Below, one piece after another: positions 2,222 through 54,954 of a stretch of 64,000 nt of DNA. The notes beneath the pieces are model-generated. The model made no database searches. It was not told the origin of the DNA and was given only the letters and a program-made list of their open reading frames with translations. This stretch comes from Tausonia pullulans. Its lineage: Eukaryota; Basidiomycota; Tremellomycetes; Cystofilobasidiales; Mrakiaceae. Where the stretch lies: contig OX637626.1 of NCBI GenBank assembly GCA_951802195.1, positions 1,054,001-1,118,000 on the forward strand. Reading direction: 5' to 3'. The position numbers were made by a program, and so were the translations under genes. The first letter of the stretch is position 1; each line of letters starts with the position of its first letter.

Positions 2222-2344
2222 CATCCTCTCTTCGCTCTTTCCGCCACCCGAAGGTTTCCAGATCGAAACTGGAGCCCGCAACTAAACAATGCGGGCTGGC
2301 GCAATGGTAGCGTGTCGGGCTCATATGATTCAGAGAAGAAGATG
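2222..2344 (+). ncRNA. Predicted leader-trailer helix of the permuted pre-tRNA
   Basis: In a permuted precursor, the 5' leader and 3' trailer take the place of an intron. Here CATC, TCTT and CTCT in the leader (2222-2225, 2229-2232, 2235-2238) pair with GATG, AAGA and AGAG in the trailer (2341-2344, 2336-2339, 2332-2335), giving 12 Watson-Crick pairs with small bulges. G2243, third from the 3' cut site, can pair with C32 at 2320, which is the anticodon-intron pair needed by eukaryotic splicing endonuclease. C2244, C2245 and A2246 form the usual three-base bulge. The pairings are seen directly; processing is inferred. Confidence 0.75.
2246..2325 (+). tRNA. Circularly permuted initiator tRNA-Met(CAT) gene
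   Basis: The 3' half (2246-2281) precedes the 5' half (2290-2325). The 3' half reads A38, anticodon stem CCCGA, variable AGGTT, T-stem TCCAG, loop ATCGAAA, CTGGA, acceptor GCCCGCA and discriminator A. Eight bases follow (2282-2289). The 5' half then gives acceptor TGCGGGC, D-arm (TGGCGCAATGGTAGCGTG), stem TCGGG and loop CTCATA. All stems pair (7, 4, 5 and 5 bp, the D-stem with one G-T). Initiator hallmarks are the ATCGAAA T-loop, the GGG:CCC anticodon stem and the CAT anticodon. The halves meet between positions 37 and 38, the normal tRNA intron site. Internal B and A boxes occur in reversed order. A T4 terminator follows at 2351-2354. An ordinary reading fails because no T-arm lies downstream. 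The oddity is a T1:A72 pair where eukaryotic initiators have A1:U72. Confidence 0.87.
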
Positions 2345-2350
2345 AATTTC

Positions 2351-2354
2351 TTTT
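2351..2354 (+). terminator. Pol III T-run terminator of the permuted tRNA
   Basis: Four T residues, preceded by TTTC, lie 26 bases after the 5' half. This allows one Pol III transcript to include leader, 3' half, spacer, 5' half and trailer. Confidence 0.6.
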
Positions 2355-2769: not shown

Positions 2770-3184
2770 TTTTTTTGTATTTAAGTCATGAGTTATACAT
2801 AGAGAACGAGGTAACCCTATGAGAGATGGTGATTCTTAGCTAGATAGAGAGAGAGCGAAAATGAAAGTAGGGGTGGAAGGAAAGCAAAAGATGGTTATGG
2901 ACATATGCCCATGAGAAAAGGTAAGATATCAAGATGACCAGCTATATCCAGCGGTGGCTATGGTCTAACCATACTTCGCCACCCCTGTCCTTTTGTTCAC
3001 CCAGGGTCGATGTCGTCGCCGACAGCAGTGCCAGCCATCTGGCCCCTGCCAGCCATCCACCGCGTGCTCGACTGCCAGTGTGTCTGCCGGATCGTAGACG
3101 CGATCTTGCGGATCTTAGACGCGATCTTGCGGATCTCCTCGTCCGTGACAGGGTCGAGGGCTGCGATCTTGCTGAACCTCCGCC
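2770..3184 (-). mobile_element. LINE, 5'-truncated copy (3' end of ORF plus 3' UTR and tail)
   Basis: A minus-strand non-LTR retrotransposon fragment. It begins (on the minus strand) inside the reverse transcriptase reading frame, matching the last part of the ORF at 56254-57221 including the final GDDIDPG and stop. It continues through the shared 3' UTR and ends in TTTAAATAC plus an A-run, seen here as a T-run at 2770-2776. A short internal duplication (AAGATCCGCAAGATCGCGTCT-like) lies near 3100-3140. Its 5' end abuts the next element's A-tail at 3185, so it was inserted first or shares the same site. Confidence 0.8.
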
Positions 3185-4036
3185 TTTTTTTTTTGTATTT
3201 AAGTCATGAGTTATACGTGGAGAACGAGGTAACCCTATGAGAGATAGCGAGTTGTAGCTAGATAGAGGGAGAGCGGACATGACCGAGCGCGAGAACGTCG
3301 GGCGAGGCGCCGTGGGAAGAGGGTTGGTCGAACCACCGGGGATGGTGGTTGGCCGAAAGGGGGTTGGTCGAACCACCGGGATGGTGGTTGGCCGGAAGGG
3401 GGTTGGTCGAACCACTGGGGATGGTTGGCCGGACGGCGTGATGGGCGCCGTGGGAGGGGGGTTGGTCGAACCACCGGGATGGTGGTTGGCCGGAAGGGGG
3501 TTGGTCGAACCACCGGGATGGTGGTTGGCCGGAAGGGGGTTGGTCGAACCACCGGGATGGTGGTTGGCCGGAAGGGGGTTGGTCGAACCACTGGGGATGG
3601 TTGGCCGGACGGCGTGATGGGCGCCGTGGGAGGGGGGTTGGTCGAACCACCGGGATGGTGGTTGGCCGGAAGGGGGTTGGTCGAACCACTGGGGATGGTT
3701 GGCCGGACGGCGTGATGGGCGCCGTGGGAGGGGGGTTGGTCGAACCACCGGGATGGTGGTTGGCCGGAAGGGGGTTGGTCGAACCACCGGGATGGTGGTT
3801 GGCCGGAAGGGGGTTGGTCGAACCACCGGGATGGTGGTTGGCCGGAAGGGGGTTGGTCGAACCACTGGGGATGGTTGGCCGGACGGCGTGATGGGCGCCG
3901 TGGGAGGGGGGTTGGTCGAACCACCGGGATGGTGGTTGGCCGGAAGGGGGTTGGTCGAACCACTGGGGATGGTTGGCCGGACGGCGTGATGGGCGCCGTG
4001 GGAGGGGGGTTGGTCGAACCACCGGGATGGTGGTTG
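3185..4036 (-). mobile_element. Non-autonomous retroelement with minisatellite body and LINE-type tail
   Basis: On the minus strand this copy has a tandem-repeat body, then a short unique segment, then the same roughly 100-bp tail and A-run as the LINE copies (T-run 3185-3194 on the plus strand). The body holds 16 copies of the core GGTTGGTCGAACCA. These are arranged as 39-bp units interspersed with longer units of about 58-60 bp that carry GGACGGCGTGATGGGCGCCG. Related copies lie at 55681 and 57750. It encodes no protein I recognise; the long open frames arise because the 39-bp unit is a multiple of three with no stops. It probably uses the LINE machinery through the shared tail. Confidence 0.7.
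3323..4036. repeat. 39-bp minisatellite array with higher-order structure
   Basis: Sixteen cores read GGTTGGTCGAACCAC followed by CGGGATGGTGGTTGGCCGGAAGGG (39-bp unit) or by TGGGGATGG and a GGCGTGATGGGCGCCG insert (longer unit). The order is short and long units in irregular blocks, as expected from slippage and unequal exchange. The core is a near palindrome around TCGA. Its reverse strand contains GGTTCGACC, which resembles the start of a Pol III B box. Confidence 0.85.
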
Positions 4037-4116
4037 CCTCCGGACGAATCCTGGAATCGATGACCTGGCTGGCCAGGAGGGAGAGTCGACATACTCAGGA
4101 TCATGCGATCCTGCTC

Positions 4117-4233
4117 GTCTGGATGGTGTAGCGGTATCACGCCATGTTAGGGTGCCTGACTACTGCGGAATCATTCGTATTCAGTCAAACCATCACTTCA
4201 TGGAGGTCCTCGGTTCAATCCCGGGTTCGGACC
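4117..4233 (+). tRNA. tRNA-Pro(AGG) with 45-nt intron
   Basis: The acceptor GTCTGGA pairs with TTCGGAC (4226-4232). The D-arm region GTGTAGCGGTATCAC, anticodon stem CCATG (4142-4146) with CATGG (4199-4203), variable AGGTC, and T-arm CTCGG-TTCAATC-CCGGG are all present. The loop TTAGGG (4147-4152) plus T4198 gives anticodon AGG, read as proline. An intron at 4153-4197 interrupts the canonical position after base 37. A C discriminator (4233) and a T5 terminator (4235-4239) follow. A near-identical gene lies at 54838-54954 on the minus strand. Confidence 0.93.
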
Positions 4234-4239
4234 CTTTTT

Positions 4240-53810: not shown

Positions 53811-54837
53811 GGTAGGGAGCTGGGGGGGGGGGGGGAGGGGGAGATGTGCTTGGAATGTGGTTGGGATGAGGAGATCACGGCAAGCGCGAAAACACCACTC
53901 TGGCAAGAGGGGAAAGAGCAAGATCAAACCCAAGCCGCCGCCGTCGGGCCCAGACGCCAGAAAGAAGAGAAGGCACGCACCCATTCGTCCCTCGACTTCA
54001 CGCTTTGTCCCTCTGGGCAGGCAGGTCTGACCGTCGGAGCCGGCGACGACGACGGTCAACGCGTGGGGATCGAAGGGAGGACAACCACCCGCTGGACAGT
54101 TGCCGGCGGGCGTTCCTCCAGCCTCAGCTCTCCAGTCTCAGCTTTCCAGCCTCAGTCAGCTCTCCAACTGCAGCTTTGGGCCGCCTGGTCGGACGGACAA
54201 TTCCATCGTCATGCTTGCCAAAGGAGAAACGATTGGGGTCGATATCTCGTCGTATGGACCGAACTGCTTTGCCCGCGAGGTGGCAAGCAGGAGTGACACG
54301 GCTGACGGCGCAGCAGGGTAGGTAGGACCTGCAGACTGAGGAAGAAAGCATCGAGCGTTCCGGGCTCGGACTCTCCAGCGCCCAAGCTCTCCTCTCATGG
54401 ATGGATCCACGCAAACAAGAGATAGGGGTGAGTGCGACAAGGAGTGTGTTCGAAAGGCGGAAGGCAGTCAGAGTATATAAAAAATAGAAGAGCCGCGCTG
54501 TTCGTGGGCGAGCGAGCGGCGGAGAGCGTGGATCGCCCTCCTTCTGCCCCACGACAGTATTGACCTGCGATCGCGCGGCCGATCTGGGTCTGGGCCTTCG
54601 CACGGTCGGGGAGCCATGGATAGGAGGTTCGTGGCTCGGCGAGAAGCAGACCGTGCCGCGTTGGCGAACCTTCGTTTGCATCAGCATGGATCCAAGGCGA
54701 GGGGGTGGGTGTCGAGAGCGTGTGGATCTGTCTCCCCGACAGAGACCGATCATCTTGCCAGCTTGCAGAGGGAGGAGCGGCGGGAGGAGTCGCAGTGGAA
54801 ATTCTTCTCGGACGGAGGAGGTGGAGGAGGGCAAAAG
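53811..54837. other. Intergenic; weak plus-strand open frame only
   Basis: A G-run (53823-53834) lies near the start of the secreted-protein gene. A plus-strand frame at 54100-54321 (SIVMLAKGETIGVDISSYGP) has partly protein-like composition but no clear start, splice context or homology. From about 54480 the region flanks the 3' side of the tRNA-Pro gene. Confidence 0.4.
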
Positions 54838-54954
54838 GGTCCGAACCCGGGATTGAACCGAGGACCTCCATGAAGTGATGGTTTGACTGAATACGGATGA
54901 TTTCGCAGTAGTCAGGCACCCTAACATGGCGTGATACCGCTACACCATCCAGAC
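54838..54954 (-). tRNA. tRNA-Pro(AGG) with 45-nt intron
   Basis: Read on the minus strand, it has the same exons as the gene at 4117: acceptor GTCTGGA with TTCGGAC, CCATG/CATGG anticodon stem, TTAGGG plus T loop, AGGTC variable and CTCGG-TTCAATC-CCGGG T-arm. The intron is the same length and differs from the 4153-4197 intron at only two positions that I can see. A T4 terminator follows (AAAA at 54833-54836 on the plus strand). Confidence 0.93.

Follow-up and report, generated by a model that had tools for sequence, protein, structure and literature searches.

The survey of Soma (2014; PMC3978253) counts 34 permuted tRNA genes, from six algae and one archaeon and none of them fungal, and describes most eukaryotes as being without such genes. 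According to this source, the initiator tRNA gene (iMet) is permuted at position 50/51 in Cyanidioschyzon merolae and at 37/38 in two Micromonas, the gene for tRNA-Gln(CTG) is permuted in C. merolae, and most, not all, of the C. merolae permuted genes are preceded by a TATA-like element. The crenarchaeon Thermofilum pendens, with permuted iMet and Tyr genes, is given there as having a permuted initiator as its sole source of this tRNA. The same isotypes thus recur: permuted iMet genes are listed for a red alga, for green algae and for an archaeon, and a permuted Gln(CTG) gene for C. merolae. Reversed halves in eukaryotes are also described for a chlorarachniophyte nucleomorph tRNA-Ser gene (PMC4494063) and for tRNAs of Auxenochlorella (PMC12633428), both algal, unlike the gene presented here, and the first of a different isotype. 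An earlier note on the present DNA stated that no permuted tRNA was known from fungi, and our literature search, run at title and abstract level and with most subscription journals outside its coverage, likewise gave no fungal report.

The window, i.e. the whole 64,000-nt stretch of DNA that was analysed, contains on its plus strand, at positions 2246–2325, a full tRNA-iMet(CAT) whose halves are swapped, with residues 38–73 first and 1–37 second. The 3′ half (A38–A73, 2246–2281) comprises the 3′ strand of the anticodon stem, the variable region, the T arm with the loop ATCGAAA, the acceptor strand GCCCGCA and the discriminator A. It is followed by an 8-nt linker, CTAAACAA (2282–2289), which has no T-run and thus no internal stop for Pol III, and by the 5′ half (positions 1–37, 2290–2325), with the acceptor strand TGCGGGC, the D arm, the anticodon stem and the anticodon CAT at 2322–2324. 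The halves meet at 37/38 and all four stems pair: acceptor 7/7 (TGCGGGC/GCCCGCA), D 4/4 with one G:U (GCGC/GCGT), anticodon 5/5 (TCGGG/CCCGA) and T 5/5 (TCCAG/CTGGA). The B box (tRNA positions 52–62, 2260–2270) lies 5′ of the A box (positions 8–19, 2297–2307). A TATA-like element at 2186–2192, 54–60 nt 5′ of the 3′ half, is likely a start signal for Pol III/TFIIIB, and a run of four T resembling a Pol III terminator occupies 2351–2354. Between these signals and the tRNA halves lie a putative precursor 5′ arm (2218–2245) and 3′ arm (2326–2350) that pair with each other; G2243, at position −3, can pair with C32, and it is the pairing of −3 with 32 that constitutes the A-I pair.

The boundaries of both halves, the 8-nt gap, the four paired stems, the 37/38 junction, the reversed boxes and the T4 run had all been proposed in the earlier note, and each was confirmed in the sequence; its reading of the locus as a circularly permuted (type II, 37/38) initiator tRNA gene in a fungus agrees with the anatomy and with the basidiomycete relatives of the encoded proteins. 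The gene matched R1, our covariance model of permuted tRNAs, with 66.5 bits over 2246–2325. It is absent from the output of ARAGORN (bacterial code) and Rfam (gathering score), both of which report two genes for tRNA-Ala in the window and no others. Allowing introns, ARAGORN adds two conventional tRNA-Pro(AGG) genes (4117–4234, plus strand; 54837–54954, minus strand), each with a 45-nt intron at 37/38 and each missed by the bacterial-code scan and by Rfam at gathering score. Like the type II genes of C. merolae and the prasinophytes as described in PMC3978253, the locus shows reversed halves, a 37/38 junction of bulge-helix-bulge type, a short linker, an upstream TATA-like element and a T-run. 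The permuted initiator of T. pendens differs in its junction at 59/60, its extra intron, its encoded CCA and its archaeal endonuclease (PMC3978253). The anatomy of each fungal permuted gene is of the already known type II kind.

Eukaryotic initiator tRNAs are characterised by a CAT anticodon, a GGG:CCC anticodon stem and A60 in the T loop; A1:U72 is their usual, not invariable, first acceptor pair, and A20 is the norm. The hallmarks claimed in the earlier note (T-loop ATCGAAA, GGG:CCC and CAT) are present in the window copy, which has both A54 and A60; A54U55C56 is given as a feature of the initiator T loop in PMC3978253. In place of A1:U72, the acceptor stem begins with U1:A72 (window positions 2290 and 2280); this pair, as well as T20, occurs in all 14 iMet copies of the genome (see below). 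The departure at 1:72 lowers the certainty with which these sequences can be assigned to the initiator; we keep the name because the sequences have the remaining hallmarks and our searches gave no other initiator. A pattern for elongator tRNA-Met, ACTCATAATC, had eight matches in the genome and seven in the reversed control, and no elongator gene was identified from them.

We searched the genome record (23.9 Mb, 21 contigs) for further copies and for an ordinary iMet gene. The 28-nt core of the 5′ half, with up to three mismatches, had 14 matches, all of them exact (0 in the reversed-pattern control), whereas a pattern for the 3′ half, with up to two mismatches, had 20, of which 14 were exact and six had two mismatches (six in the control). 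Reading of the loci showed that the exact matches of both patterns belong to the same 14 genes, with the 3′ half first in 14/14 and a linker of 5–8 nt, lacking a T-run, after A73; their R1 scores range from 66.5 to 75.1 bits. The recurrence of both halves, always in this inverted order, at 14 loci indicates that the permuted gene of the window is not a product of chance. The halves are identical in 13 of the 14 copies, and the two differences of the remaining one, L028 (G for A52 and C for U62), convert A52:U62 into G52:C62 and keep the T-stem pair.

A DNA query with the iMet sequence in normal order matched 28 pieces, two at each of the 14 loci and never as one contiguous match; the longest piece covered 40 of 72 positions, at L031, because the flank of this locus happens to continue the match. 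The uninterrupted anticodon arm, GGGCTCATAACCC, had no exact occurrence in the genome, and one of the 19 places that differ from it by one base is a permuted locus. Neither the half patterns nor the normal-order query found a conventional iMet gene, with or without an intron, in the 23.9-Mb record. Thus, the search for an ordinary iMet gene that the earlier note had proposed, carried out with patterns and a DNA query, left 14/14 loci permuted. The part of that note that took the locus for a permuted gene stands; its treatment as a single gene does not, as there are 14 iMet loci together with permuted Gln and Thr genes. We also reject the locus being a lone oddity beside a normal iMet gene, since no contiguous copy was found in the genome.

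The flanks of the iMet loci have mostly diverged. Three pairs of loci are nearly identical (L033/L034, L035/L036 and L040/L041), which indicates that segmental duplication has occurred, and there is some partial likeness among others, as of L032 to L033. Beyond these, no common unit was seen by eye in the flanks, and a shared repeat element was discarded as the source of the copies. A related explanation would make the permuted copies repeats or pseudogenes derived from tRNAs, akin to SINEs, with a conventional iMet gene that is unassembled or has diverged beyond the reach of our searches. The dispersal of the copies, the three pairs with near-identical flanks and a possibly incomplete genome record would suit this explanation, yet we consider it very improbable, as the halves are intact in 14/14 copies, mostly without a shared repeat unit around them, the flanking arms match each other locus by locus, the G at −3 is invariant, the one change in the T stem is compensated, and 21 Gln loci have the same order of halves. 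Moreover, GGGCTCATAACCC, the half patterns and the normal-order query together detected no ordinary iMet, and no contiguous iMet appeared among the matches. The near-identical partner of L035, L036 (G000:C7:1162770-1162849), is a further iMet copy situated ca. 106 kb beyond that of the window on the same contig, with almost identical flanks.

R1 was built from ten yeast tRNAs and five of this genome, and was run on 73 sources; of 132 loci, the run left out L003, L007, L014–L018, L035, L042–L055, L064–L098 (pieces of 161 nt) and L130–L132, mostly overlaps or repeats. Beyond iMet, it revealed a permuted tRNA-Gln(CTG) gene (42.3 bits; L100:1488-1571, equivalent to G000:C1:751729-751812), which was also read in the letters, and a permuted tRNA-Thr(TGT) gene (50.7 bits; L120:1397-1525, equivalent to G000:C2:1549210-1549338, minus strand), one place seen in both L119 and L120 and the only such locus found in the genome. 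With the rows of these two kinds and of iMet set aside, the other R1 matches (90 of the 107 rows) reached at most 26.4 bits, and those compared lie on conventional tRNAs. The acceptor, anticodon and T stems of the Gln and Thr genes consist entirely of standard pairs; all four stems pair in the Gln gene, and the D stem of the Thr gene has one non-standard pair. The linker of the Thr gene, of 53 nt, can itself form a hairpin, and ARAGORN assigns the 3′ half of this gene to a predicted Leu gene whose intron would measure 533 nt.

Used as a query, the Gln gene identified 21 loci, 19 at full length and two as a pair of separate matches, of which the 3′ one precedes the other; all 21 are permuted by their coordinates, L100 being the one whose letters were read through. 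A 16-nt pattern for the Gln anticodon arm was exact at all 21 loci, in each case where the Gln match ends downstream, and had no listed place with one mismatch; places with two or three mismatches were at chance level (197 in all, against 229 in the reversed control). The anticodon is CTG in L100 and in one further copy, and CTG or TTG is possible in the other 19. Nine of the 21 loci are on contig C18. A B-box pattern had 261 matches in the genome, against 57 for its reversed control; both the Gln and the Thr genes came from the first 30 of these, and the remaining 231 may contain further permuted isotypes. ARAGORN predicted a gene in 26 of these 30 loci, many with introns of 13–82 nt, that in L110 only with an unassigned anticodon. 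There were at least 63 Rfam tRNA matches in the genome, and the 43 of these loci that were read hold conventional genes for Ala, Arg, Asn or Trp. On these counts, the fungal genome appears to contain at least 36 permuted tRNA genes (14 iMet, 21 Gln and one Thr).

Tandem arrays of ordinary tRNA genes could mimic this arrangement, by the chance juxtaposition of halves that belong to adjacent conventional genes. Indeed, R1 also scores such arrays, with up to 45 bits for tandem tRNAs in a viral contig, above the 42.3 bits of the Gln locus, so that an R1 score is not proof by itself. The stems of the viral tandem tRNAs are broken, however, and the array matches that were printed have broken pairs in the acceptor or the anticodon stem, whereas in the iMet, Gln and Thr genes described here all pairs of both stems are standard. 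Additionally, blastn found no relic of the outer halves within ca. 1.4 kb of the 14 iMet copies, the one match being antisense and of 11 nt (E 0.48). We therefore reject the array artefact, which we regard as having a negligible probability. The permuted-iMet pattern had one match in viral and five in prokaryote contigs. Candidate L133 was rejected as a permuted tRNA because it is a run of adjacent conventional tRNAs; L134, L135, L136 and L138 were not accepted, having no R1 match up to E 10, and neither was L137, with a run of weak R1 matches of which one, of 16.1 bits, lies over the place of the pattern.

The sequences flanking the permuted iMet genes are consistent with a precursor in which both ends pair. 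At 11 loci (all iMet loci minus L034, L036 and L041, one of each near-identical pair), we examined the pairing of the 20 nt that immediately precede the 3′ half with the 20 nt that immediately follow the 5′ half. The mean duplex energy was −12.21 kcal/mol for arms of the same locus and −6.62 kcal/mol across loci, and no permutation out of 20,000 equalled the matched arms, with the same result at 25 and 30 nt. The test should be conservative, because some of the 11 loci look related (L032 and L033), which would make mismatched arms pair better. There was little difference in a control with the flanks of 83 conventional genes (−5.62 kcal/mol matched, −5.35 kcal/mol in 2000 sampled mismatched pairs), for which the gene ends given by ARAGORN are possibly a few bases off. 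Some arms are weak at 30 nt (−8.7 kcal/mol in L028 and −11.2 in L038), the window copy being among the weaker ones (−13.3), and the arms of the Gln gene in L100 pair little.

Base −3 is G in the 16 genes read (14 iMet, one Gln and Thr) and can pair with base 32. The ordinary genes with an intron at 37/38 of the same genome share this junction, with the halves in normal order, and their bases 32 and −3 are pairable in 17 of 21 rows, some of which repeat one gene type; the four rows that do not fit are from Ser(GCT) genes, whose introns measure 13–14 nt. Anticodon-intron pairs are described as an element recognised by the yeast endonuclease (PMC3978253). The flanks of the iMet loci fit a relaxed motif of the bulge-helix-bulge type, of a geometry that varies among copies. 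A TATA sequence occurs at −63 to −46 in 11/14 iMet loci, or 11/16 when the Gln and Thr genes are counted, being absent from L031, L038, L039, Gln and Thr; in the background it was found in 65 of 4160 windows of 18 nt and in at most four of 53 upstream regions of conventional genes, whichever 18-nt window was tried. All 14 iMet loci have a run of 4–6 T that starts 14 to 30 nt after the 5′ half. The spacing of the TATA and the T-run would fit a transcript carrying both arms.

These flanks also bear on whether the halves could come from separate transcripts that are joined in trans, in the manner of split tRNAs and without an intramolecular circle. Joining of two transcripts is allowed by the reversed order as well, and dimers would be compatible with the DNA sequence; nevertheless, only 5–8 nt separate the halves, with no T-run between them, and the arms would unite 37 and 38 on the same transcript in a locus-specific manner, which makes joining in trans highly unlikely and favours closure of a single transcript into a circle.

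Predicted folding was less informative. The free fold of the window copy (139 or 111 nt) was not more stable than those of shuffled sequences (z −0.60 and −0.21), and for L100 the free fold was 4.2 kcal/mol better than the cloverleaf fold; folding energy alone is thus uninformative here. In unconstrained folds with 28 and 26 nt of flank, 16 of the 21 cloverleaf pairs were kept in 13 of the 14 iMet copies, and 11 of 21 in L038. The structures of L030 and L035, from which that of L038 differs, contain the acceptor, D and anticodon stems and the helix of the two arms, while a local alternative hairpin takes the place of the T arm.

The genome encodes sequences assignable to the domains of the Sen endonuclease and of the Trl1 ligase. 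Pfam domain PF01974 (Sen2/Sen34) was found at C1:1290511, with 38.7 bits and one TGA inside, and at C7:866660, with 27.5 bits, near the cut-off; relatives of the frame at C7:866660 are named Sen34, and it matches an assembly protein at 100% identity over 95% and is 47% identical to that of Mrakia frigida. Domain PF09511 (Trl1-type ligase) was found in pieces of one stretch at C6:341837-342704. A permuted iMet copy lies ca. 2.5 kb from this stretch (C6:345176-345252), probably by coincidence. As for the host, a tryptophan-synthesis protein (L011) is 72% identical to that of M. frigida, 64–70% to proteins without a species name and at most 55% identical to those of other named tremellomycetes among the matches listed, and the best named matches of a protein encoded in the window, with 8000 candidates scored, are from other basidiomycetes. 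These relationships point to a tremellomycete near the Cystofilobasidiales, with M. frigida as the closest named species among the matches listed.

On this basis we propose a pathway for the expression of these genes. Pol III, guided by the upstream TATA, would start ca. 25–30 nt before the 3′ half and stop at the T-run. The ends of the transcript would then form a helix that prolongs the anticodon arm, so that the two 37/38 junctions would be displayed like those of an ordinary tRNA intron; the predicted A-I pair is G(−3):C32. Cleavage at 37 and 38 by the Sen2/34 endonuclease would remove both ends, and a Trl1-type ligase would join 37 to 38, yielding a circular pre-tRNA with its acceptor closed by the linker of 5–8 nt; the domains of both enzymes are encoded. 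By analogy with the algal pathway as described in PMC3978253, RNase P and tRNase Z would finally excise the linker, and CCA would be added. The circular intermediates have been demonstrated in algae, according to the same source, and are predicted for the fungal genes.

It is very likely that these are working circularly permuted tRNA genes of a basidiomycete. All the loci found, 14 for iMet and 21 for Gln, are permuted, so that initiation and Gln decoding would pass through circular RNA. Protein synthesis in this fungus probably depends, then, on RNAs that are first closed into circles. A stronger and more tentative reading, to which we give somewhat less than an even chance, is that all cytosolic initiation and Gln decoding run obligatorily via circular pre-tRNAs, and that the permuted form has been spreading and has displaced every conventional gene of its isotype; within this reading, dispersal would have occurred perhaps by reverse transcription of the circular pre-tRNA or by duplication, with new self-pairing arms acquired.

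Unlike the algal type II genes described so far, these have a fungal host and form families scattered over the genome, one of 14 loci for iMet and one of 21 for Gln, for which no conventional copy was found; the table in PMC3978253 has a single gene for nearly every permuted anticodon, with two for Gly(CCC) of C. merolae. As far as we have seen, the novelty resides in the kingdom, in the multi-copy dispersed families and in the apparent lack of conventional genes for two isotypes. A basidiomycete host could allow circular RNA to be tested as an obligatory step in translation initiation. Relatives of this basidiomycete are grown in the laboratory. Such a host could also show how Pol III transcribes genes whose A and B boxes are in reverse order, and whether the permuted form arises through tandem duplication or out of circular RNA. 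Essential genes can escape standard tRNA finders, and where the annotation of a fungus seems to lack iMet or Gln, this may be an artefact.

Two kinds of repeats were observed in the course of the analysis. Near the iMet gene of the window, the minus strand of 2942–4140 contains a tandem repeat, with long open frames of near-identical units (VVRPTPFRPTTIP, WFDQPPSGQPPSR). Elsewhere, the members of a repeat family (L013–L018, L021, L026 and L027; 1501–1513) carry TGGCTCATAACCC(GA), which resembles the joined iMet anticodon arm across 37/38; the match, of 13–14 nt, could be a primer-binding site or chance. Its interpretation as a retroelement primer-binding site spanning 37/38 was set aside, as no LTR end is visible where it lies. 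By eye, L015 and L021, of the same family, have frames that look copia-like.
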